58,673 nt of DNA from Alphaproteobacteria bacterium (GTDB lineage: Bacteria > Pseudomonadota > Alphaproteobacteria > Bin95): the NCBI GenBank assembly GCA_022826185.1, contig JAJDVH010000011.1:1-58673 (forward strand), written 5' to 3'. The notes under the pieces are model-generated. The model worked only from the letters and a program-made list of their open reading frames with translations, searched no databases and was not told the origin of the DNA. The translations under genes and the position numbers were made by a program. Shown here in pieces: positions 15,310 to 27,356 of the stretch (its first letter is position 1; every line of letters begins with the position of its first letter).

Positions 15310-16050
15310 ATGAAGCTTGCCGGCAAGACGGCGATCGTGACAGGAGGAGCCTGGGGCATGGGGGCGGTCACGGCCGAACTCCTTGCATCAGAAGGCGCGG
15401 ACGTTGTCGTCGCGGATATCCTGGAGGAAGAGGGGCAGGCCCAGGCGGAGAAGATTACCGCGGGCGGGGGCAAGGCATCCTTTCATCGTCTGGATGTGAC
15501 CGAAGATGCGGGATGGGCGGAACTGGCTGCCGCTCGGCCCGAGGCCGATATACTCGTCAACAATGCCGGCATCAGCGGCAGCGGCTACGCCGACCCCTTC
15601 GACCTCGACGCCTGGCACAGTCTGATGGCCATCAACGTCACCGGGGCGTTTCTCGGATGCCGCCATTTCGTGCCGAAGATGGCGGCTGCGGGCGGCGGCG
15701 TCATTGTCAATATTTCGTCGATCTCCGGCGTCGTCGGCCAGGACGTCGTCCATCACGGCTACAATGCTTCCAAGGGGGCGATCCGTGTATTGACGAAATC
15801 GGTGGCCGTGCGCCATGCGCCGGAGGGGATCAGGGCGAATTCGGTCCACCCCGGCCTGATGCCGCCGATGCGGACCTCCGGCGCCACCGCCGATCCCGTG
15901 GTGCGCGAGCGGATGCTGCGCCGGGTGCCAATGGGCCGCAACGGCCGCGCGGACGAGGTCGCAAAGGCGGTGCTCTTCCTCGCGTCTGACGACAGCAGCT
16001 ACTGCACTGGCGTGGAACTCTATGTGGACGGCGGTTTCCTCGCATCGTGA
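15310..16050 (+). CDS. SDR-family NAD(P)-dependent oxidoreductase
   Basis: 246 aa. Classical short-chain dehydrogenase: cofactor motif TGGAWGMG near residue 12, NNAG in ILVNNAGISG, catalytic Ser in VNISSISGVVG, Tyr-x3-Lys in YNASKGA, and ELYVDGGF at the end. Asp in VVVADI after beta-2 favours NAD over NADP. Start at 15310 has GGGAG 8 nt upstream. It precedes a TPP-dependent decarboxylase, with a strong hairpin between the two genes. An alcohol/ketone pair upstream or downstream of a 2-oxoacid decarboxylation step would make sense, but no substrate can be read from the sequence. Confidence 0.9.
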   Translation: MKLAGKTAIVTGGAWGMGAVTAELLASEGADVVVADILEEEGQAQAEKITAGGGKASFHRLDVTEDAGWAELAAARPEADILVNNAGISGSGYADPFDLDAWHSLMAINVTGAFLGCRHFVPKMAAAGGGVIVNISSISGVVGQDVVHHGYNASKGAIRVLTKSVAVRHAPEGIRANSVHPGLMPPMRTSGATADPVVRERMLRRVPMGRNGRADEVAKAVLFLASDDSSYCTGVELYVDGGFLAS

Positions 16051-16060
16051 CGTTCACCTG

Positions 16061-16093
16061 CCGGCACGGGAAGGAGCGCCTTTCCCGTGCCGG
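16061..16093 (+). terminator. Strong hairpin between SDR and decarboxylase genes
   Basis: A perfect 12-bp stem CCGGCACGGGAA (16061-16072) pairs with TTCCCGTGCCGG (16082-16093) across a 9-nt loop. It begins 10 nt after the SDR stop. There is only a weak T-rich tail (CATTTCATT), so it may be a terminator or an mRNA-stabilising structure that sets unequal expression of the two genes. Confidence 0.55.
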
Positions 16094-16151
16094 CGCCTCC
16101 ATTTCATTCCCCGACCGACGGTTCCCCGCCGAACGAAGGAAGCGACCAGCA

Positions 16152-17813
16152 ATGCCCTCCCCCTCCAACACGATCAGCGGCCGCAGCGCCTTTCTTGCCG
16201 TACTCAAGGATGAAGGAGTCACGCACCTCTTCGGCAATCCGGGCACAACGGAATTGCCGATCATGCATGCGCTGACCGAGCAGAGCGATCTCGGTTACGT
16301 GCTGGGCCTCCAGGAGTCAGTGGTCGTTGCGATGGCCGACGGCTTCGCACGCGCTTCCGGCAAGCTGGCGGCCTGCAACGTCCATGTCGCGCCGGGGCTG
16401 GGGAATGCCATCGGCGCGCTCTACACCGCGTCGCAGAGCGGCTCACCGATCATCGTGACCGCCGGACAGCAGGAACAGGGCCACGGGCTTACGGAGCCGC
16501 TTCTCTATGCTCCGCTTACCCCGATGGCGGAGCCTGTGGTCAAGTGGGCCGTGGAGGTCACCAGGATCGAGGATCTGCCGCGCATCCTCCGGCGCGCCGC
16601 CAAGGTGGCGACGACTCCTCCCACGGGACCGGTCTTCATTTCCCTGCCCGGAGACATCCTGAACCGCCATGAGGCCATCGATCTCGGACAGGTCACGCGG
16701 GTCGATTCCCGCATCCGCCCCTCCGACGAGGCGCTGGCGGGCATGGCGGACCGAATCGCCGCGGCGGCCAATCCGGTCGTGCTCGCCGGCCACGAGACGG
16801 CCACCGGCGATGCGCTGGATGCCGCAGCCCGGTTCGCCGAACTGCTGGGAGCGCCCGTCTATCAGCAAAGCGTGCCGCAGGGGGCGCATTTCCGTTCCGA
16901 ACACCCCTGCTTCATGGGCGCGCTCAGCCGAAGCCAGCCGCAGGTCCGGCGCCTGCTGGCGCCCCATGATCTGATAGTCAGCCTCGGAGCCGACTTCCTG
17001 CGGATGTCGGTCTGGAGCGAAACCGACCCGCTGCCGGAGCATATGGCCGTCATCCAGATCGGCCTGAGGGACTGGGAACTCGCCAAGAACTACCCGGCCG
17101 AAATAGCTGCGCTGAGCGATGTGCGCGAAACCCTGGCGGTCCTCAATCCGCTGCTGGAGGAAAGGCTGGGCGCCAGTCGGCAAGACCGGATAGCCGCGCT
17201 CGCCGGACATAATTGGACTGCGAACCGCAGCAAGGCGTTGAGGGCCGTGGCGGAGACGGTCGAGGACGCCGATCCGATTCCGCCGGCCTGGCTCTGCATG
17301 TGCCTGGCCGAGGAGTTGCCCGAAGACGGCATTGTTGTGGATGAAGGCATCACCACCGGAGCGCGCCTCCTGGATTTCCTGCCGTTTCGGGACGCAAACG
17401 GCTATTTCGGCAATGTCTCGGGCGGGATCGGCTGGGGCATCGCCGCCGCCGTCGGCGTGCAGATCGCGCAGCCCGCCCGGCGCACCGTCGCGCTTATCGG
17501 CGACGGCAGCGCCATGTATTCGATTCAGGCGCTCTGGACGGCCGCCAACGCGCTGCTGCCGGTTGTCTTCGTCATCGCCAATAACGGCGGTTACCGTATC
17601 CTGAAGGACCGGATGAAGGCCTTTCACGACAATGATGCGCCCATCGGCATGGATTTCCGCAACCCTTCCATCGACGCCGTGCGGCTTGCGGAAGGATTCG
17701 GCATGGCTGCGACCCGCGCGGAAAGCCCGGCCGCCTTCCGAAAGGCTTACAAGGAGGCCCTCGCCGGCTCCGGCCCTGTTCTGATCGAAGCCGTGGTCAG
17801 CGTCGGCGGCTGA
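16152..17813 (+). CDS. Thiamine-diphosphate 2-oxoacid decarboxylase, benzoylformate-decarboxylase-like
   Basis: 553 aa. TPP-enzyme family with all three domains: N-terminal Pyr domain (FGNPGTTELPIMHAL, catalytic Glu in LQESVVVAMADGFARASG), central domain, and C-terminal PP domain (IGDGSAMYSIQALWTAAN to VIANNGGYRI, the GDG-NN motif that holds Mg-TPP). NVHVAPGLGNAIGALYTA carries a His equivalent to the active-site His of benzoylformate decarboxylase, which favours that branch over acetolactate synthase. Start at 16152 has AAGGAAG 9 nt upstream. It converges with the MFS gene (17-bp overlap). Probable substrate is an aryl or branched 2-oxoacid; oxalyl-CoA or sulfopyruvate decarboxylase activity is less likely. 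Confidence 0.85.
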   Translation: MPSPSNTISGRSAFLAVLKDEGVTHLFGNPGTTELPIMHALTEQSDLGYVLGLQESVVVAMADGFARASGKLAACNVHVAPGLGNAIGALYTASQSGSPIIVTAGQQEQGHGLTEPLLYAPLTPMAEPVVKWAVEVTRIEDLPRILRRAAKVATTPPTGPVFISLPGDILNRHEAIDLGQVTRVDSRIRPSDEALAGMADRIAAAANPVVLAGHETATGDALDAAARFAELLGAPVYQQSVPQGAHFRSEHPCFMGALSRSQPQVRRLLAPHDLIVSLGADFLRMSVWSETDPLPEHMAVIQIGLRDWELAKNYPAEIAALSDVRETLAVLNPLLEERLGASRQDRIAALAGHNWTANRSKALRAVAETVEDADPIPPAWLCMCLAEELPEDGIVVDEGITTGARLLDFLPFRDANGYFGNVSGGIGWGIAAAVGVQIAQPARRTVALIGDGSAMYSIQALWTAANALLPVVFVIANNGGYRILKDRMKAFHDNDAPIGMDFRNPSIDAVRLAEGFGMAATRAESPAAFRKAYKEALAGSGPVLIEAVVSVGG

Positions 17814-19839
17814 ACACCCCGACGGCAAGCAGCACGGCCATCAGCGCGGTCGTGGCCAGTATGCCGTAGCCAACCAGTGTGCCCGCGTGAGCCAACCCGG
17901 CAAACGCGACGATGGCGCCGGCGAGCAGGGGGCCGGCAATGCTTCCGGCGCGTTCCACCACGCGAAACGCCGCCGTGACCGTCCCGGTCCCGTGGGCTTC
18001 CGTCTCGACCCTGAAATAGGTCGGCAGGACGGCGACCTGCGGTGTCATCACGAACGACTGCCCAAGCCCGATCAGCGCGACGCCGCACGCCAGCAACAGG
18101 CTGTCCGCCGTGGCAACGAACAGCATGCAACCGACCCCTGCTGAAACGCCGCCAACCAGAATCAGGATACCGTGGTTCTGGAACCTGTCGGCTATTACCG
18201 CCGCCGCTTGATTCATGACCAGCAATACGAGGAAGTAGACCATCATCGTGCGCCCGATTGCGGCCCCGCCGAATCCAAGCGAATCGAGATAGAGCGGCAC
18301 GAGGAAGAACAGGAAGCCGGTAAGCACGATCCGCGACGGCAGCGCCGAGAGCGCCATGAATGTCATGAATTTCGGACTGCCGTAGATGCCCAGCCGCCTG
18401 CGGCGGGAGGCAGATGTCCCGGCGCTGGCTCCCACGCCCTCGTCCGGCGATAGGAAACCGAAAGCGATCGACATCGCGACGAAGACGAGCGCAGCTCCCA
18501 CGAGGAAGGTATTTTCGTAACCGAGGCGTTCGGCGAGGATTCCGCCGATAGCCGTTGCGCAGATGCTGCCGCCTCCCGTGGCAGTGACGAACACGCCGAT
18601 ATTGAGCGCCCGCCGCCGCTCCGGCGCCGTCATGGCGAGCCGGACCAGGATCGCCGCAGTGACAAGGCCGAACCCGGCTGCCGTCAGGCAACGCAACAGA
18701 ATGAGTTCGATAAAGCCGCCTGCAAACGCGGTCGCAATGAGGCCGACGCTGGTCGGCGCCATGCCGAAGAGCAAGGTGTTGCGCGTGCCGAAACGGCGAA
18801 TGAGGCCGGGAGCGAACGGCGTCGTGAAGAGCATTGCGACGACCCACACCGACATCGGCATGGCGATGGCAATGGACGCATCGATCCCGATTGAAGGGTC
18901 GTACAGGTCCCGCACGAAGAGCGGGAAGAAGGGCCGCGAAAGCTCGACGCCGAAAATGAAGAAGAAGAGGGGATATTGGACATCTCCCGCACGCAGCACC
19001 TGCACGGACCGGTAGGAACCATGTTCGGCGAACACCCGGCCTTCCCTCAATGTCTCCAACGCGGCGCTGCCGCCGGACGCCAACGCTCGGAAGCGCCGGT
19101 TGATCTCGGCGTTAATGCCGTTCATCGCGTCGATCACCCGGCCCAGATCGTCGCGTCCGCGCGTTGCGATGGATGCCGAAAAATCTCCCTCGCTAACGGC
19201 ATGCATCAACCGGCGCATCAACCCGATGGAACGGGCGACTGTCAGCGACAGCACCAGCAGGGTGAGTTCGAGCACGATGAGTACGGCGACGCACAACGAA
19301 ATGCCGATATCGGTGAAAATGCCCCCCATCGTGTTGCGGACAAACCGCCGGTCGATGCCGATCATCGCGTATCCGACCTGCTTGCCGTCATGGACCATCG
19401 GATGCGTGACGTTGTAGTCCGTATCGAAGGAAATGAATGCGCCGGCCTGCGCCTCGCTGGCGTTCGCCGCCAGGGGCTGAAACTCATCGTCCTGACTGTC
19501 TTCCGACTCTGCCAGGAACAGGACGTTGCGCTCCGGATCCGTCACCGCGAGATAGGCGACTTCGGGATGATCTGTCAGCAGATCCTCCAGATAGGTGTCC
19601 ACACCCCTCAGGTCGCCGACCGGTATGTCGAGGCTTACGGCCTTGTAGAGGTCGTTGGCGATAGAGCGGGCAAGGACATTCGCCTTGTCCTTGATGACCG
19701 GTTCCAGCCTCGTCTCGACCGCGCCCAACGCGACCCACGCCAGCACTGCGTTCGCGGCGATCAACGCTGCAACAGCCACGAATCCTATGCGGATTCCGAG
19801 CCCGGCAAGAGTCGGCGCACGGCGGCTTCCCCGAATCAT
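17797..19839 (-). CDS. Sensor-HAMP-MFS fusion: membrane transporter with a periplasmic sensor module
   Basis: 680 aa. Residues about 13-40 are a first membrane helix; 41-175 are a periplasmic Cache-like sensor (LDIPVGDLRGVDTYLEDLL, HPEVAYLAVTDPERNVLF, HDGKQVGYAMIGID); 178-202 are a second helix; 203-255 are a HAMP-like linker (RSIGLMRRLMHAVSEGDFSA, DDLGRVIDAMN). From about 286 a complete 12-helix major facilitator transporter follows (FGVELSRPFFPLFVRD, RRFGTRNTLLFGMAP, LGQSFVMTPQVAVLP). Normal MFS carriers have no sensor or HAMP, so this looks like a transporter gated by a periplasmic ligand. It is the last gene of the operon ATP-grasp A / sensor-only / MFS, joined by 4-bp ATGA overlaps. Cargo unknown; export of the ATP-grasp product is my inference. 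Confidence 0.85.
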   Translation of the reverse strand: MIRGSRRAPTLAGLGIRIGFVAVAALIAANAVLAWVALGAVETRLEPVIKDKANVLARSIANDLYKAVSLDIPVGDLRGVDTYLEDLLTDHPEVAYLAVTDPERNVLFLAESEDSQDDEFQPLAANASEAQAGAFISFDTDYNVTHPMVHDGKQVGYAMIGIDRRFVRNTMGGIFTDIGISLCVAVLIVLELTLLVLSLTVARSIGLMRRLMHAVSEGDFSASIATRGRDDLGRVIDAMNGINAEINRRFRALASGGSAALETLREGRVFAEHGSYRSVQVLRAGDVQYPLFFFIFGVELSRPFFPLFVRDLYDPSIGIDASIAIAMPMSVWVVAMLFTTPFAPGLIRRFGTRNTLLFGMAPTSVGLIATAFAGGFIELILLRCLTAAGFGLVTAAILVRLAMTAPERRRALNIGVFVTATGGGSICATAIGGILAERLGYENTFLVGAALVFVAMSIAFGFLSPDEGVGASAGTSASRRRRLGIYGSPKFMTFMALSALPSRIVLTGFLFFLVPLYLDSLGFGGAAIGRTMMVYFLVLLVMNQAAAVIADRFQNHGILILVGGVSAGVGCMLFVATADSLLLACGVALIGLGQSFVMTPQVAVLPTYFRVETEAHGTGTVTAAFRVVERAGSIAGPLLAGAIVAFAGLAHAGTLVGYGILATTALMAVLLAVGVFSRRR

Positions 19840-20588
19840 CGCCTGCTCGCTTCCGCAGCCGCCAGCTTCGCTGCGGTTTCCCGCACGGAAACGCTGTAGC
19901 CCACAAACTCTGCAAGGTCGGTATCGACCGGCGTTTCCTCCTGATCCGAATTCAACAGGTTTTCAACGCTTTGCCGCAGATAGCGCGCCGTCGTCGTCAG
20001 CTTCCACAATGCCGCGGCGGTTCCCAGCACCGCAAGCAGGCCGCTGGCGAGAAAGATGACCGCAGCCGCCTCCAGGAGCTCCTTCGTCAATCCCCCCACA
20101 ATGCTGGCGTAGCGCGCCTTGCTGTAACGAACCGCCACCCCGCCTTCGAGTTTCCCGAAATTGTTGATGACCGGCGCGCCGACGACAAACGACTCCGGGT
20201 CTTCGATACGCCAGACTTCCCCTTCGGCCTCCCGGTTGCCGTCGGTCCAGTCTGCCGGGGCCTCGGCTTTTCCGCCGTTCAAGGCATTGCCGCCATGCAC
20301 AAGCAACTTGCCGCGGGCATCGAAAATGCTGGCGGACTGGAGTTCCGGATAATCGTCGATCAGCGCGTCCACAATCGACCGGCTTTCCGCAATGTCCTTG
20401 AGCGGCAGCCCGAGGTCCACGGCCTGCCGCAAGCGACGGGAGGTATCGAGTGTCACGACCGATACCCGGGAATCGTCCAGCCCCCGCAGGATGTCACCGA
20501 ATTTCTGCTGGTTGAGCAGGATCATCAGCGCCATGGTCACTGCAAACGCACACAGGAAGGCCAGATTCAATATGACCAGCAGCCTCAT
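19836..20588 (-). CDS. Sensor-only membrane protein (Cache-like) paired with the MFS fusion
   Basis: 250 aa. N-terminal helix (RLLVILNLAFLCAFAVTMAL), periplasmic sensor of about 130 residues with DLGLPLKDIAESRSIVDALI, DDYPELQSASIFDARGKLLV and VGAPVINNFGKLEGGVAVRY, then a second helix (AAVIFLASGLLAVLGTAAAL) and a cytoplasmic tail of about 55 residues that resembles a HAMP helix pair but ends without any output domain. The INNFGK-GGV motif is shared with the sensor-only protein at 26619-27356. Start at 20588 (ATGA overlap with the ATP-grasp stop); stop overlaps the MFS start. It probably pairs with the sensor of the MFS fusion. No enzymatic residues seen. Confidence 0.75.
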   Translation of the reverse strand: MRLLVILNLAFLCAFAVTMALMILLNQQKFGDILRGLDDSRVSVVTLDTSRRLRQAVDLGLPLKDIAESRSIVDALIDDYPELQSASIFDARGKLLVHGGNALNGGKAEAPADWTDGNREAEGEVWRIEDPESFVVGAPVINNFGKLEGGVAVRYSKARYASIVGGLTKELLEAAAVIFLASGLLAVLGTAAALWKLTTTARYLRQSVENLLNSDQEETPVDTDLAEFVGYSVSVRETAAKLAAAEASRR

Positions 20589-21595
20589 GCGGCAGACACT
20601 CCCTGACGCTCCAGACTGTAGCAAAGGAAATGTTCGATCATGGCTTCGTGCGACACACCCGCGGCGTTAGCGCCTATATTCATTGACATGGTCGTCGCCA
20701 GATTGCAGGTCACATTGAATTCGAGCAAGCGAAATGACCCGTCCGGGGCAACACGAAAATCGACACGCAGATAATCGCAGGGCTGCACCAGCCTTGTGAA
20801 CGCAAGCGCCGCCTCCTGCAATTCCTTGCACAGCGCCTTGTCCTGGAAGGGTTCGCCACGCTTTCCGGGGTCCAGGTAGCGTTTCTGACGCTCTGTCTGG
20901 ATTCCTTCCCGCAGCTCGGAGTGGTTGGCGACGGGATGCATCGCCAAAGGTCCGCCAAGCACAGGCACCGTCACGTCCAGACCCGGCGCGAGCGCCTCGA
21001 TCAACGGCTCCTCGCCCGCAGCGAGGAATGTCGAGGCCCGGGCCCGAGCCTCTTGCCAGTCGCCGCAAATGGAGCCTTCGTCGACCCCTTCGGAGTTGGC
21101 CCCGAAACGGGGTTTGACGAAATAGGGCCCTTCGAAGGCCGGCGGATCGTCGAGGTCGGCCTCGCTGACGGCCACTGTCCCCTCCGGAACCGGCAGCCCT
21201 GCGCCGCGCGCCATCAGCTTCGTAATCCACTTGTCCTCAGCCATCGCGCGGATATTCGGCGGGCTGCCGAGATAAGGAATGCCGGAGCGCGCGCACAAGC
21301 ACGAGACCAGAATTTCGGGATTGCGCACAGCCTCGCGGTTGTAGATCTGAAAGATGTAATCCGGCGCCGGGCCGCAGTTCATGCGCTCCTCGAACGCTTC
21401 GAGGCTGCCGCAGGGCTCAACCGACCGGGCCAGGCTGCGAAGGACCGAGAGCACTTCGAATTTGGTATAGAGTTCGCGTCCGTAGCGCGGATGGACCATG
21501 GGCGGCGGTTCGCTCCAGTCCTGCGCGTATTTCGCCAGATAGAGGATATCCAGTTTCCTGCGCTGCTCCTGACCGATCTGCAAAAGCTTAAACAT
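20585..21595 (-). CDS. ATP-grasp ligase A (D-Ala-D-Ala-ligase-like)
   Basis: 336 aa. ATP-grasp fold: preATP-grasp region from LDILYLAKYAQDW; nucleotide lysine K161 in GPYFVKPRFGANSEGV; metal residues D279 (YLRVDFRV), E292 and N294 (LLEFNVTCNL). The order and spacing match D-Ala-D-Ala ligase, but the usual N-T-x-P-G loop is replaced by NVTCN, so the acceptor site differs. It therefore probably ligates other amino acids or carboxylates with ATP. It shares GxPxNIRAMAEDKW, QKRYLDPG and SHEAMIEHFL with ATP-grasp B at 22700-23728. First gene of a three-gene operon. The start at 21595 has a weak Shine-Dalgarno (CAAGA). It is divergent from the binding-protein gene. Confidence 0.8.
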   Translation of the reverse strand: MFKLLQIGQEQRRKLDILYLAKYAQDWSEPPPMVHPRYGRELYTKFEVLSVLRSLARSVEPCGSLEAFEERMNCGPAPDYIFQIYNREAVRNPEILVSCLCARSGIPYLGSPPNIRAMAEDKWITKLMARGAGLPVPEGTVAVSEADLDDPPAFEGPYFVKPRFGANSEGVDEGSICGDWQEARARASTFLAAGEEPLIEALAPGLDVTVPVLGGPLAMHPVANHSELREGIQTERQKRYLDPGKRGEPFQDKALCKELQEAALAFTRLVQPCDYLRVDFRVAPDGSFRLLEFNVTCNLATTMSMNIGANAAGVSHEAMIEHFLCYSLERQGVSAA

Positions 21596-21640
21596 TCTTG
21601 AAATTACCAGATGCCTGTCGCAAACGCGGCGAACCGGCTT

Positions 21641-21669
21641 ATGATAGCCAGCCAGCCATCTTCAAGCAA
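21641..21669 (-). promoter_or_regulatory. Candidate sigma-70-like promoter for the ATP-grasp A operon
   Basis: On the minus strand TTGCTT (21669-21664) and TATCAT (21646-21641) are separated by exactly 17 bp. The expected transcript would start near 21634, leaving a leader of about 40 nt before the ATG at 21595. The 94-bp gap between the two divergent starts probably carries both promoters and any operator. Confidence 0.35.
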
Positions 21670-21689
21670 CGCAACGGTCGCTGATTCCG

Positions 21690-22703
21690 ATGTTCCGAGC
21701 GCTAATTCTGGCCCTCGCCGCCTGGACGGCGAGCGCCGCGGCCTCACAGGCCGACCCCTTCACCATCTACATGATCGTGCATCGCGCCGGATCGGGCGCC
21801 GATGAGGGTTTCCGAGACTACCTGAAGGCGAACGGCGTCGATGCCAGCTTCGTCTTCCGCGACATGGAGAACGACCGGTCCCGCCTGCCCGGCTATGTCG
21901 AGGAGATCAAGGCGCTGAAGCCCGATCTCGTCTATACGCAGACAACCTCGGTGACGCGCGCGGTCGTCGGTCGGCTGGAAGAGGCCGACCCGGCGAAGCA
22001 TATCCTCGACATTCCCGTCGTGTTTTCGATGGTTTCGTTTCCGGTCAGGTCGAAACTGGCGCCCGAGAATCCCGACCCTGCAGGCCCGATGCTCTCGAAA
22101 CGCAACCTGACCGGCGCCAGGCATGTGGTCTCGAATCTCGTGCGTCTCAACGCCATGCGCACCTACATGCCTTTCAAGAAGCTGGGCATGCTTTACGACA
22201 AGAGTTCGGGCGCGCAGCGCCGGTCCGAGGTGTCCATGCGCGCCCTGGCCGAAGAGGCCGGCCTCGAATTCGTTTCGGATAGCCCCACGGAACCCAAGGT
22301 CGAGCGGGACCCTGCCCAGATCGAGCCGACGCTCCGGCGCCTCAAGGCTGAAGGGGTCGACTTTCTGTATATCCCGCCATCCAATTTCTTCGGCGCCCAT
22401 GCCGAACTGGTGACCCGGACCGCAACCGAACTCGGCCTGCCGACCTTTTGCGGCGTCGAGACCCTGATCCGTTACCACTGCATGACCGGGCTGGTCAGCC
22501 CGCTGTACGCCGTCGGACAGTTCGCCGCCTTCAAGGCGGAGCAGATTTTGACGGGCGGCAGGGACCCCGGAGAGATCCCGATAGAAACGCTCTCCCGGTT
22601 CTCCTTCGTGGTCAATATGGAGACAGCTCACAAGCTGAAGGTGTATCCGCCGATGGAAATTTTGCGTTTCGCCCAGTTCATCAAGACCGGAGCCGAGTCT
22701 TGA
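21690..22703 (+). CDS. ABC-type periplasmic substrate-binding protein, TrpX-like, without permease
   Basis: 337 aa. Signal peptide MFRALILALAAWTASAAASQA. Belongs to the ABC_sub_bind (TrpX-like) group: IYMIVHRAGSGADEGFRDYL, IKALKPDLVYTQTTSVTRAV, IPVVFSMVSFPV, FKKLGMLYDKSSGAQ, EGVDFLYIPPSNFFGAHAEL, TRTATELGLPTFCGVE. Relatives bind tryptophan, tyrosine or other small ligands. The usual neighbours, a permease and an ATPase, are missing; instead the stop overlaps an ATP-grasp gene as TTGA. It may present a ligand to the four membrane sensors nearby, as periplasmic proteins do for some histidine kinases. That role is inference. No good Shine-Dalgarno precedes the ATG. Confidence 0.82.
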   Translation: MFRALILALAAWTASAAASQADPFTIYMIVHRAGSGADEGFRDYLKANGVDASFVFRDMENDRSRLPGYVEEIKALKPDLVYTQTTSVTRAVVGRLEEADPAKHILDIPVVFSMVSFPVRSKLAPENPDPAGPMLSKRNLTGARHVVSNLVRLNAMRTYMPFKKLGMLYDKSSGAQRRSEVSMRALAEEAGLEFVSDSPTEPKVERDPAQIEPTLRRLKAEGVDFLYIPPSNFFGAHAELVTRTATELGLPTFCGVETLIRYHCMTGLVSPLYAVGQFAAFKAEQILTGGRDPGEIPIETLSRFSFVVNMETAHKLKVYPPMEILRFAQFIKTGAES

Positions 22704-23728
22704 TCGCCCTGAAACGTTTGGACGACAGACGCCGCGCTACTCTGAGAATTCTGTATCTCGCGCCCCACGCGCCCTCACCCGACACGCCGAAGCCTCCGGC
22801 GATTCATCCCGATTACGGGGTCCAGCCCGCTTATCAGTACGAGATATGCGACGTGCTGACCAACGGGCTCGGTCTGGACGTTGTGAGCAGTTCCGACCTG
22901 AACGCCGTGCCGCAGGCGTTCGAAGGCCGGAATTATGTCTTTTCCCTCTACAACATCGCGCCGTTTCCCAACTCCGAGGTCTATGTTGCCGCATTGGCGG
23001 CCAGAGCGGGCATAGCCTGCATGGGCGCGCCGGCAAACATACGCGCGCTCGCCGAGGACAAATGGCTGAGCAAGCTGGCGGCGCAGGCGCTGGGCATCCC
23101 GACGCCCGCCGGAAAAGTCTATGGCCCGGGCGCTCCGGTTCACGAACCGGGTTTCGATGGTCCCTATGTGGCGAAGCCGCGCTTCGGCGCTGCATCGACA
23201 GGCATAGATGCCGAGAGCGCACAGGCGGACTTCGGCGCGCTCGCGGCGCGCATTGCGCAACTCCGGGCGACTACGGACGAATGCCTCGTCGAACAGGTCT
23301 TCGGCGAGTTCGATGTGACGGTGCCGATCCTGGTCGGCGAAGACGGACCTGTGGCCCTGCCGCCCGCCACCCAGACATGCGACAGCCCCTACGGGCTCTT
23401 TACTCACCGCCAGAAACGAAAGCTCGAACCGGGCCTCACGCGGGAGTTCCCGGGCGACGAACCTTGGCTGGAGCCCATCATCGAAGATGCGCTTCGGTTC
23501 GCGCGGGCGGTTGAGCCTTACGACTATCTGCGCTGCGACTTCCGGTTCGGCCCTGCGGGCCACGCCTTTCTCGAATTCAACCTCGCCTGTTCCATAGGCA
23601 GCGCGATGGCCTTCGCCCAATGTGCCGCGCGTGTCGGAGTCTCTTCGGAAGCTCTGGTGGAGCACATTCTGGTCACCAGCCTCGACCGGCAGTGGGGTCA
23701 GGGGGCGTCCGCACCGTCGCCGAGGTAG
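22700..23728 (+). CDS. ATP-grasp ligase B (D-Ala-D-Ala-ligase-like)
   Basis: 342 aa if started at the TTG at 22700, which forms a TTGA overlap with the stop of the binding protein and has CGGAG upstream; homology starts soon after (LRILYLAPHAP). ATP-binding lysine in GPYVAKPRFGAASTGID; metal residues D280 (YLRCDFRF), E292 and N294 (FLEFNLACSIG). As in ligase A, a cysteine (NLACS) stands where D-Ala ligases have the NTxPG loop. Similarity to ligase A runs the whole length (MGAPANIRALAEDKWLSKL, QKRKLEPG, SSEALVEHIL). It probably performs a second, related ligation. The last 31 bp overlap the convergent phosphatase gene. Confidence 0.8.
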   Translation: MIALKRLDDRRRATLRILYLAPHAPSPDTPKPPAIHPDYGVQPAYQYEICDVLTNGLGLDVVSSSDLNAVPQAFEGRNYVFSLYNIAPFPNSEVYVAALAARAGIACMGAPANIRALAEDKWLSKLAAQALGIPTPAGKVYGPGAPVHEPGFDGPYVAKPRFGAASTGIDAESAQADFGALAARIAQLRATTDECLVEQVFGEFDVTVPILVGEDGPVALPPATQTCDSPYGLFTHRQKRKLEPGLTREFPGDEPWLEPIIEDALRFARAVEPYDYLRCDFRFGPAGHAFLEFNLACSIGSAMAFAQCAARVGVSSEALVEHILVTSLDRQWGQGASAPSPR

Positions 23729-26622
23729 CGCAATGCGACGGTCGTTATATCGTCGCTCTGCTCGACGCCGGTAGAGAACGCCTCGACCGACGCCCGCATC
23801 GCGTCGCAAATGGCGGCAGGCGGCGCTCCGGCAGTGGCTTCCAGTTCGGCTTCCAGACGCGGCTCGCCGAATTGCTCGCCCGCTTCGTTGAAGGCTTCGT
23901 TGACGCCGTCGGTATAGAAGAACAGTGTTTCGCCGGGCGCCAGGAGGGTTTCGCCTTCCTGGAAACTGAAGCCCGGCATGATCGCAAGCGCCAGGCCGGC
24001 ATCCATCGGCAAGGTTGATATCTGCCCTCCGGCGTCGATCCGGTAGGTCGGGTTATGTCCGGCATTGGCGAATGTCACATGGCCGGTCTCGGCATCGACA
24101 ACCGCGTAGAAGGCAGTGACGAACATCATTTGTTCGTTCTCCGCCTCCAGCATGTCGTTCAATGCCGTCAGCACCCTGGACGGAGATTCGCCGATCAGCG
24201 CCGTGGCCTTTAGCAGGGTGCGTGCGATCAGCATGAAGAACGCGGCCGGTATTCCCTTGCCCGAAACATCCGCAATGACGATCCCGATACGGCGCTCGTC
24301 GATCGCGAAATAATCGTAGAAGTCGCCGCCCACTTCCTTGGCCGGCACCATCTGGGCCGCGATCTCAACAGTGCGTTGAGGCGGCGTTTCGCGCGGCAGG
24401 ACGGAGAGCTGCAGATCATGGGCAATGGACAGCTCGCGTTCGATCGCGACAAGGCGCTCCTTGTGCTTGAGGGCCTCGCGAAGTTCCTCGACCAGTTCGG
24501 TCAGGCGGCCGTGCTGTTCGCGGATGCGCTGGGCCATTTGCTCGAACACCAGCGTGAGGGCTTCGAACTCGTCGCTCGCTCCCTCCTGTTCGAGCTGGGC
24601 GAGCTGGTCGGTGACCGCCTGCCGGGCTTCCGCGCCGACCGCCGAAGTGAGGCCGGTCATCTGCTGGCGCAGGAATCGTTCGCGCCGCCTTTGCGCCCTG
24701 CGGCGCTCCGCGGACAGGCGCTCAACCTCGCCCAACGACGTGCGGTAAGCCTCAACCGCCCTGGCGATGCGGGCGATCTCGTCCTTGCCGGCCTCCTGTT
24801 CGAGCCAGACTCCGCGCCGACCGTCGGACAGTGCTTCCAGCACGCCGATCACCCGATCGAGCGGTTGCAGCGAGCCGCGCAGGTTCGCGTAAAGGACCCA
24901 TAGTGCGATGCAGGCGAAAATCGCCACCGCTCCGAAGAAGGCGATACGCAAGGCCTCCTGCCGTGCCGAAAGCTCGCTGACGTCGGTTATGACATGAAGC
25001 GCCGCAAGCCGCCCGCCATTCAGGGCCGGGATATTCGCGGTCGTCCTGGCATAGTCGCCGCTATCGCCATCGAGCCCCTGCCAAAGCGGCGGATCGGTGC
25101 CGAAGATCAGCCCGCCTTCGCTCCCCACCAGGAACGCCTCTCCGCCGAGAACCGCCCCTGCCTCCAGCACCGCCGAGGCAAGGGGGACGCTCGCAGCGAC
25201 GATCAGCACATCGCCTTGTTCCGGGTCTCCCAAGGCTTCCGCAACTGTCCAGACAGGCTTGCCGTCAGCATCGAGGTCGCCGCCGCTTACCCGGCTGCCC
25301 GTGTCCATGATCCGCTTGGCGACACGCGGCGACAAGGGGTTCCGCCCCACGAACAGGCGTCCCCCTCCCTCTTCGGACGGATCGAAGGTCACGAGTTGTT
25401 TGAGACCGCTGCTCGTGGCGATATCTTCGATCAGCCGCGCTGCAAGCAACGCGTCTCCCGCAAGGAGCGCAGACCGGATACCCTCATTGACGCGAAGCGA
25501 AGCCAGTTGGCGCGCGACCAAATCCGTCTCGCGTTGCGACAGGGTTTTCCAGACGGTCCTCAGCGCAGTCTGGCGGTCTTCGTCATAACTCTCGGCCAAC
25601 AGGCGCTCGCGAACGATGCTGCCGTAGCCCAGGCCGATGGCCAGCAACAGCCCCCCGAGGCTTATGATGGCCGTCAGCCGCAGGCGTATCGAGATATTCC
25701 TTCCGAACCGGCCTACCGCGGTGGGGGGCGTCGGAGGAATGTCGCGGAATGTCGGTTCCAGCCGCTGAACCAGTCCCCGCCGAACGCGTTCGAGCGAATC
25801 CCGCACTGTCCGCCCGACCGCGGCATCGCGTGCGTCTTCCGCCTGATCCAGAATCGAATCGTACCGCGCCCGCAGACCGTGCAGCACCGAGTTGAATGCA
25901 CGGGCTGCAAAGCCGATTTCGTCCCGCTGCCCCAAATCCCCGAGCAGCACCGGGCGCCCGCCGGCCGCTTGCGCGATGCCGCTGTCGAGCCGTTGCAGGC
26001 GGCGGCCGACGCGCAACCCCAGGAATAGCGCGCACAGCAACCCGGCGATGACGCCGACGGCGCCCGCTATGGCGAAGCTCGGCCAGTTCCGGCGCAGAAT
26101 ATGCGTCACGAAGTCCTTTTCGACGGCGACATGCAGAAGAGCCAGCGGGTAGTCAGCCGGACCGATCGGGCGGATGTCGACGGAAAGCTCGCCGAAGATG
26201 TGACGGTTGCGGGCTTCCGTCATTCCCCCCGCCATCCGCCGCTCCTCGAAAACGGTATCGGCCGCTTCCAGAACCTCTTCGAGCCGCTCACGCGCAATGC
26301 CGCTGAAATAGACCGGTCTCTTGTCCGGCGACGTCATAGCGATAAAACGGATATCCGGATTGTCGTCGAGAAAGCGCTGGAAGAAGGGCTCGACCCCCCG
26401 AAGCTCCGCAAGCGGGATGCCGACCCGAGCGGCGCGTTCCATCTCGGTCTTCATCGCCTGCCCGACCGCCAGCGCCTTGCGGTCAAGTTCGTCGGTCAGC
26501 GGCTCTTCGGCCCACCAGTGGAAAGCAGCAGCCGTCAAGACCGCCTGCAGGAGTGCGACTATGACGGCGGCTGCGCAGGCTTTCAGCCAAATTGTTCGCG
26601 AGAGTCCGCCCATGCCCATCAT
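23698..26622 (-). CDS. Double-sensor membrane SpoIIE/PP2C-type phosphatase
   Basis: 974 aa. First unit: helix 12-34, periplasmic sensor 35-178 (VGIPLAELRGVEPFFQRFL, DNPDIRFIAMTSPDKRPVYF), helix about 182-203, HAMP 204-255. Second unit: helix about 312-336, second periplasmic domain 337-555, helix about 557-579, HAMP 580-635. Then a coiled coil (640-745) and a SpoIIE-type PP2C domain (750-970) with every metal motif: GGDFYDY at 765, IADVSGKG, ANAGHNP, YTDGVNEAFNEAG, QSDDITTVAL. It should dephosphorylate a Ser/Thr-phosphorylated protein, commonly a STAS-domain regulator, in response to two periplasmic signals. No STAS or anti-sigma partner is in the window. ATGA overlap with the upstream sensor-only gene fixes the start at 26622. 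Confidence 0.87.
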   Translation of the reverse strand: MMGMGGLSRTIWLKACAAAVIVALLQAVLTAAAFHWWAEEPLTDELDRKALAVGQAMKTEMERAARVGIPLAELRGVEPFFQRFLDDNPDIRFIAMTSPDKRPVYFSGIARERLEEVLEAADTVFEERRMAGGMTEARNRHIFGELSVDIRPIGPADYPLALLHVAVEKDFVTHILRRNWPSFAIAGAVGVIAGLLCALFLGLRVGRRLQRLDSGIAQAAGGRPVLLGDLGQRDEIGFAARAFNSVLHGLRARYDSILDQAEDARDAAVGRTVRDSLERVRRGLVQRLEPTFRDIPPTPPTAVGRFGRNISIRLRLTAIISLGGLLLAIGLGYGSIVRERLLAESYDEDRQTALRTVWKTLSQRETDLVARQLASLRVNEGIRSALLAGDALLAARLIEDIATSSGLKQLVTFDPSEEGGGRLFVGRNPLSPRVAKRIMDTGSRVSGGDLDADGKPVWTVAEALGDPEQGDVLIVAASVPLASAVLEAGAVLGGEAFLVGSEGGLIFGTDPPLWQGLDGDSGDYARTTANIPALNGGRLAALHVITDVSELSARQEALRIAFFGAVAIFACIALWVLYANLRGSLQPLDRVIGVLEALSDGRRGVWLEQEAGKDEIARIARAVEAYRTSLGEVERLSAERRRAQRRRERFLRQQMTGLTSAVGAEARQAVTDQLAQLEQEGASDEFEALTLVFEQMAQRIREQHGRLTELVEELREALKHKERLVAIERELSIAHDLQLSVLPRETPPQRTVEIAAQMVPAKEVGGDFYDYFAIDERRIGIVIADVSGKGIPAAFFMLIARTLLKATALIGESPSRVLTALNDMLEAENEQMMFVTAFYAVVDAETGHVTFANAGHNPTYRIDAGGQISTLPMDAGLALAIMPGFSFQEGETLLAPGETLFFYTDGVNEAFNEAGEQFGEPRLEAELEATAGAPPAAICDAMRASVEAFSTGVEQSDDITTVALRYLGDGADAP

Positions 26623-27356
26623 CCGATCCGGTCCAGCCGGTCGATTTCGCGCGCGTCGGTATCCATCGTGGCGAGCATTCCGGTTGCGGCCTCGTGGAAA
26701 CGGGCAAGCGATTCCGGGGCTCCCTTGAGGTCCGCCGCCTGACCTTCGGCCATCGCCAGCAGAGAGGTGTCGCTTTGCCTCAGCATGTCCAGAACGGGGC
26801 GCAACACCCATCGGGCAAACACGGAAACGAGCAGGAGGCAAATCGCGAATACGACAGCGGCGATACCGAGAACCGTGATCGTCGCGCGCTCCAGCAACGG
26901 GGCGCTGTGCCGGACTTCGCTCTCCAGCAGGACGCCGCCGACGACCTTCCCGAAATTATTGATAAGGGGGCTGCCCACGGTCACGGCCCTCTCATCGGCT
27001 TCGATCCAGCGTCCGGTCCGGTCGCTGATTTCCACCGTCGTGCCGAGGTCCGTCTGGTCGGTGGAGAACACGACCCGGCCATTGGCTCCGAAGACCAGCA
27101 GGCGGTCGATATCGGGGTCGGCGGCCTGGGTCCGGTCGAGTATGGCGGCAATCTCCGGAATGGTTTCCAGCCGGAGACCCAGATCCGTCCGGACGGTAAT
27201 TGTGTGGGCGATCTCATCGACGGTGAAGCCGAAATGAGATGTCTTGACCGTCCTGAGTTCGCGGTCGAACGTGTCCAGCGCGGCATAAACGACGAACGCG
27301 AGCGACAGGGCGACGCCAACAAGAAGCGCCAGTCCCAACTTGATCCGCAGTCTCAT
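26619..27356 (-). CDS. Sensor-only membrane protein (Cache-like) paired with the phosphatase
   Basis: 245 aa. N-terminal helix (IKLGLALLVGVALSLAFVVY), periplasmic sensor with RTDLGLRLETIPEIAAIL, DRLLVFGANGRVVFSTDQ and VGSPLINNFGKVVGGVLLES, a second helix (TITVLGIAAVVFAICLLLVS) and a HAMP-like tail (RWVLRPVLDMLRQSDTSLLA) of about 65 residues, with no output domain. The INNFGK-GGV segment is nearly the same as in 19836-20588. Its stop overlaps the phosphatase start as ATGA, so the two are made together and probably form a mixed receptor. First gene of its operon; 84 bp separate it from the AMP-ligase gene behind it. Confidence 0.75.
   Translation of the reverse strand: MRLRIKLGLALLVGVALSLAFVVYAALDTFDRELRTVKTSHFGFTVDEIAHTITVRTDLGLRLETIPEIAAILDRTQAADPDIDRLLVFGANGRVVFSTDQTDLGTTVEISDRTGRWIEADERAVTVGSPLINNFGKVVGGVLLESEVRHSAPLLERATITVLGIAAVVFAICLLLVSVFARWVLRPVLDMLRQSDTSLLAMAEGQAADLKGAPESLARFHEAATGMLATMDTDAREIDRLDRIG

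Follow-up and report, generated by a model that had tools for sequence, protein, structure and literature searches.

Twin ATP-grasp ligase-like proteins with a loop cysteine at an alphaproteobacterial sensor and transporter locus

Gene content of the locus

The window, i.e., the whole stretch of 58,673 nucleotides analysed here, encodes two ATP-grasp ligase-like proteins, AG1 (336 amino acids; positions 20585–21595, minus strand) and AG2 (342 amino acids; positions 22700–23728, plus strand). AG2 is numbered from a TTG start at position 22700, taken in place of the start at 22448 in the ORF listing, which is too early. The two proteins are 41% identical and have in common the motifs NIRA[ML]AEDKW and QKRx-L-x-PG. 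Their active-site stretches read E292-F-N294-V-T-C297-N in AG1 and E292-F-N294-L-A-C297-S in AG2, with the Cys codons at positions 20707–20705 and 23588–23590, respectively, and the Asp of the D/E/N metal triad is D279 in AG1 and D280 in AG2. A recount confirmed the positions and residue numbers given for these twins in an earlier, sequence-only reading, and both motifs that it had listed as shared were found in the two proteins. The triad was likewise present in both, but its Asp is not fixed in the family, being Glu in 36 of 51 relatives. Assignment to the ATP-grasp superfamily rests on K122, K161, E292, and N294, found in 51 of 51 aligned clade members, and on profile matches. PF07478 (Dala_Dala_lig_C) scored 32.5 bits in AG1 and 23.0 bits in AG2 (cut-off, 24), and a profile of the family searched against the PDB retrieved structures of D-Ala-D-Ala ligases (Ddl) and Van enzymes (best E = 9e-23). 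An AlphaFold2 model of AG1, built from a 13-row alignment, had a mean pLDDT of 57, with values below 50 in the active-site loop, and was left out of the fold search and the placement of the Cys as too poor.

On the minus strand, AG1 overlaps by ATGA with the gene for a small sensor-like membrane protein (19836–20588), which has two transmembrane segments around an extracytoplasmic stretch and a very weak dCache_1 match. This gene overlaps in the same way with that of a 680-amino-acid sensor–HAMP–MFS fusion (17797–19839, minus strand), in which a sensor part like that of the small protein is joined to a HAMP domain (residues 197–240) and a complete MFS domain (residues 292–637). On the plus strand, the start of AG2 has a 4-base TTGA overlap with the gene for an ABC_sub_bind (PF04392) binding protein with a signal-peptide-like start (21690–22703). 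The 3' end of AG2 overlaps the 3' end of a HAMP–SpoIIE (PP2C-type) phosphatase gene (23698–26601, minus strand; the ORF as listed extends to 26841, and the start is uncertain), and beyond it lies the gene for a second sensor-like membrane protein (26619–27356, minus strand), a paralogue of the first. AG1 and the ABC_sub_bind gene diverge from a region of approximately 94 bp (21596–21689), in which the blocks TGTCG and TATGATA are conserved in close relatives and no promoter or terminator consensus was found. The proposal that both ligases share one divergent promoter thus holds only in part: there is a gap between divergent genes and AG1 borders it, but the gap contains no consensus promoter and AG2 is separated from it by the ABC_sub_bind gene.

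The gene order of this locus is kept in five related loci (L004, L005, L006, L008, and L046), and L007 retains a five-gene core, with no SpoIIE match in its available stretch; within the genus, the phosphatase gene is conserved. A TPP enzyme gene (16047–17813) was considered as a core member and rejected, as it was not seen in L007. No van-type genes were found among the scanned neighbouring genes in the window, nor any ABC permease or ATPase genes among the adjacent ones.

The loop cysteine and the acceptor side

Relatives were gathered at the levels of order, class, and phylum, and a further family with many matches was sampled as well. The resulting alignment comprised 82 distinct proteins, of which 51 belonged to the clade of AG1 and AG2 (the AG clade) and 31 were ATP-grasps outside it, including 12 Ddl. 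In this alignment, C297 of AG1 and AG2 coincides with the Pro of the Ddl loop N-T-x-P-G, and the following Asn or Ser with its Gly, which bears out the claim that NVTCN and NLACS stand in place of that loop. Cys occupies the Pro position in 50 of the 51 clade members and in none of the 31 proteins outside (Pro in 12 of 12 Ddl), a distribution that exceeds chance, and the NTxPG loop was found in none of the 51. The only exception is L127, with Ala (codon GCG) and the other motif residues intact, so that a check of the Cys among homologues, proposed from the two proteins, returned a residue that is nearly but not strictly invariant. In addition to the loop Cys, AG1 and AG2 have the QKR and P-x-D-Y-x-R motifs of the E-x-N-x-x-C clade, and C297 is the only Cys conserved among all AG1 and AG2 orthologues. 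One protein without the Cys and with a very long branch (L039), which had been added by hand to the first profile, was counted outside the clade, and the rhizobial plasmid ATP-grasps found by tblastn, which are among the 31 outside proteins, lack a Cys at this position. Judged from the alignment, the Cys is a family-wide feature of the AG clade. A separate case is that of L040, L041, and L042, which carry adjacent ATP-grasp pairs whose second protein reads EVNANPCLS, with a Cys one position later, at the Gly of the Ddl loop.

The nucleotide and metal side of the active site is fully kept in the clade, with K122, K161, S168, E200, K238, R277, E292, and N294 present in 51 of 51 members. AG1 and AG2 share with Ddl (PF07478, TIGR01205) the C-terminal ATP-grasp region, the ATP-binding Lys, and the equivalents of Ser150, Arg255, Glu270, and Asn272. 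The acceptor side, in contrast, differs at several positions besides the loop. Arg239, next to the retained Lys238, occupies the position of DdlB Tyr216 in 51 of 51 clade members, whereas 12 of 12 Ddl have Tyr; all 51 clade members have Pro272 and Asp274, where Ddl carry other residues. The Ser–Leu pair present in 12 of 12 Ddl (Ser281–Leu282 of DdlB, which binds the carboxylate of the second D-Ala) is Met303–Ser304 in AG1, Met–Ala in AG2, and mostly Lys–Val in the rest of the clade. According to PMC7691350, Ser150 and Tyr216 of DdlB are shared by those ligases whose sole product is D-Ala-D-Ala.

It is highly improbable that AG1 and AG2 are ordinary D-Ala-D-Ala or Van-type D-Ala-D-X ligases serving cell-wall synthesis or glycopeptide resistance. 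Their nearest solved structures are indeed Ddl and Van enzymes, and NCBIfam models of both kinds match weakly; however, the Ddl models scored 59 and 50 bits in AG1 and 35 and 38 bits in AG2, against cut-offs of 243 and 245.65. The NTxPG loop, Tyr216, and the Ser–Leu pair are all missing, no Dala_Dala_lig_N domain was matched in either protein, and the genome of the window encodes a separate, ordinary Ddl in which both Ddl domains score above the cut-off (L003). Because the acceptor residues are missing, the scores fall far under the cut-offs, and the genome has this Ddl of its own, AG1 and AG2 do not qualify as Ddl enzymes by sequence. The D-Ala-D-Lac and D-Ala-D-Ser ligases VanA, VanB, and VanG also have a Ddl fold with an altered acceptor side, but the VanA, VanB, VanD, and VanG models gave at most approximately 40 bits in AG1 and no match in AG2 (cut-offs, 495–775), NTxPG is absent, and the genes around them in the window encode sensors, an MFS protein, a binding protein, and a phosphatase. 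A Van-type resistance role was rejected on these scores and the aligned residues. By its sequence, the pair represents an unnamed, Ddl-derived subfamily that keeps the ATP-grasp core and falls outside Ddl. Since Cys297 with Asn/Ser298 and Arg239 replace Pro–Gly and Tyr216, and the Ser–Leu pair is gone, the acceptor is probably one other than D-Ala. The suggestion that the Cys hints at a new substrate is upheld to this extent: with a family-wide Cys and several further acceptor-side differences from Ddl, a substrate other than that of D-Ala-D-Ala synthesis is likely.

Phylogeny and genomic settings of the clade

In an IQ-TREE phylogeny, the AG clade, which is alphaproteobacterial, was supported at 98/96, and the AG1 and AG2 orthologues each formed a group at 100/100. 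Locus L007, whose proteins are 76% and 74% identical to AG1 and AG2 of the window, has a member inside each group, indicating a duplication that preceded the genus. The AG1 and AG2 groups pair at 96/72, a value accompanied by long-branch warnings. A second twin pair of the Cys type flanks a PLP-type gene in L138, L139, and L140 (genomes G755, G839, and G845); its copies branch among the proteins of the further family sampled for its many matches, so this pair arose separately, which shows that ligase pairing recurs in the clade.

Single-copy relatives are frequent in that family (53 of 149 genomes). There, the relative is typically divergently oriented to a gene for a PLP-type protein of 475–520 amino acids (20 loci of the neighbour clustering), whose motifs (SASGTDLEY and TGSKFMGGPPF; e.g., L068:5615–7183, L070:8075–9640, and L148:7447–8904) look PLP-dependent, with no match in Pfam and no convincing one in the PDB. 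A MobA/IspD-like nucleotidyltransferase adjoins the relatives in 12 loci, and PF14397 (ATPgrasp_ST), an ATP-grasp of a different family from the AG proteins, in three (L067, L071, and L073), the first of which also has a glycosyltransferase nearby. The PLP-type gene and the AG relative, often with the MobA-like gene, constitute a candidate undescribed biosynthetic pathway. In genome G056, the AG gene (L043:2768–3841) overlaps by ATGA with an SBP_bac_6-like gene, whose product has no evident signal peptide, followed by a gene for a CobW-like GTPase with a CPYC motif. A further observation concerns an accessory plasmid of Sinorhizobium meliloti (L077; NZ_CP021807.1), on which a cluster of pabB, chorismate mutase, prephenate dehydrogenase, aminotransferase, and ATP-grasp genes may specify an aminophenylalanine-derived natural product. 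Taken together, the settings of the AG clade fit a biosynthetic role better than a regulatory one. The single-copy relatives lie apart from the sensor and transporter genes found at the window, among PLP-type, MobA-like, and ATPgrasp_ST neighbours, and could belong to a different pathway.

The genes around AG1 and AG2 form a module that is also found without them. Within the class, a search with the sensor–HAMP–MFS protein gave matches in 19 of 385 genomes (E up to 1e-40), and the fusion of a sensor–HAMP part with a complete MFS domain (17797–19839 in the window; L098–L111) is conserved across many alphaproteobacterial families. Fifteen module loci outside the genus were taken up, 14 of them with enough flanking sequence; in all 14, an ABC_sub_bind homologue adjoins the fusion gene, and the adjacent genes scanned at the window include no permease or ATPase gene that would make the binding protein part of an ABC import system. 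The small sensor is present in nearly all, and SpoIIE lies beside the module in eight (L098, L099, L102, L103, L104, L108, L110, and L111). A guanylate-cyclase-domain protein (L105) and an HATPase_c_2 protein (L099) were also found in this position. Outside the class, two genomes matched the MFS protein, one of which has the full trio (L163). AG-type proteins were found neither in these 15 loci nor in those outside the class; being absent from the 15, they are not essential to the module. Other enzymes stand beside it: alanine racemase in two families (L109:11315–12637 and L111:12271–13473), ATP-grasp_4 (L105 and L106), PanB-like, i.e., ketopantoate-hydroxymethyltransferase-like, proteins (L103 and L104), and weakly matching GNAT-like proteins in some loci. 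Small-molecule enzymes are therefore a recurring theme, and gene neighbourhood suggests a conserved module for sensing and transport that carries various enzymes as cargo, the twin ligases being one example. In the literature searched, mostly without subscription papers, there was no description of HAMP–MFS fusions, of the combination of SpoIIE, HAMP, MFS, and ATP-grasp, or of an ATP-grasp with a conserved Cys.

Proposed role and alternatives

We consider it about evenly balanced that AG1 and AG2 are paralogous carboxylate–amine (amide or peptide) ligases coupled to the sensor, MFS, and binding proteins, and that their product is a small amide or peptide moved or sensed by that module. The Lys residues, Ser168, Arg277, and the acidic/Asn metal site would bind ATP–Mg; an acyl phosphate would form on a carboxylate substrate and be attacked by an amine, in an acceptor site apparently rebuilt by Cys297 and Asn/Ser298 in place of Pro–Gly, by Arg239 in place of Tyr216, and by loss of the Ser–Leu pair. 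From the conserved residues, we infer this ligase chemistry, with acyl-phosphate and amide formation, for both proteins. The stop/start overlaps (AG1–sensor–MFS and ABC_sub_bind–AG2) and the conserved gene order most likely reflect a functional link, in which translational coupling would tie AG1 and AG2 to the membrane sensor, the sensor–HAMP–MFS protein, and the periplasmic binding protein, and the product would most likely be moved or sensed by them. Successive ligations by AG1 and AG2, as the sequence-only reading had proposed, are possible. The bacilysin proteins BacD and BacE, an L-amino acid ligase with an MFS exporter, offer an analogy in how they work, an ATP-grasp peptide ligase gene lying beside an MFS transporter gene; however, BacD is of a different ATP-grasp family, BacE-type transporters have no sensor domain, and the locus in the window has two ligases. 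An extended version, which we regard as distinctly unlikely, is a closed signalling loop in which the ligases make a peptide or amide signal that is exported or gated by the sensor–HAMP–MFS protein and captured by the ABC_sub_bind protein, and HAMP–SpoIIE phosphatases convert it into a transcriptional response. D-amino acids might enter such a signal, given the alanine racemase genes beside the module in other loci.

The same chemistry could be directed at a larger target, with an amino acid or amine being attached to a glycan at the cell surface, to the head group of a lipid, or to a protein instead of being built into a small free peptide. PF14397, described as a sugar-transfer-associated ATP-grasp, the MobA/IspD-like proteins, and the glycosyltransferase beside single-copy relatives all point that way, yet no such partner stands at the locus in the window, and neither PF14397 nor a close NTP-transferase was found in five genomes searched, including that of the window (G056 gave a weak NTP-transferase match only); we therefore consider this rather unlikely. 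For Cys297, a catalytic role (a thioester formed from the acyl phosphate) or a redox-regulatory one (an oxidation switch) could be read from its conservation in every AG1 and AG2 orthologue and in 50 of 51 clade members, and from its place at the loop Pro, which in Ddl lies beside the oxyanion-hole Gly. Both are very unlikely, considering that L127 has Ala in a site otherwise intact by sequence, that ATP-grasp chemistry requires no Cys, and that no conserved partner residue for a disulfide is present. Cys297 would instead belong to the acceptor pocket or the oxyanion loop, where it most likely shapes the loop or pocket, and its role is probably structural or specificity-determining. Finally, the abundance of signalling domains at the locus might suggest that AG1 and AG2 bind nucleotides without catalysing a reaction and act as regulators of the sensor/SpoIIE module, but the retention of the ATP and metal positions in 51 of 51 proteins across unrelated gene contexts makes this extremely improbable. 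The reading of AG1 and AG2 as amide- or peptide-forming ligases of the module is the one that we retain.

These results extend an observation made on two proteins to a clade; the enzymes vary a familiar type, their setting is unusual, and their function is inferred. The AG clade is an ATP-grasp subfamily whose members are likely to be annotated as Ddl-like despite the missing Ddl acceptor site, and it gains a one-residue signature in the loop Cys. Two of its members sit in a widely conserved and seemingly undescribed module of sensor, MFS, binding protein, and phosphatase.
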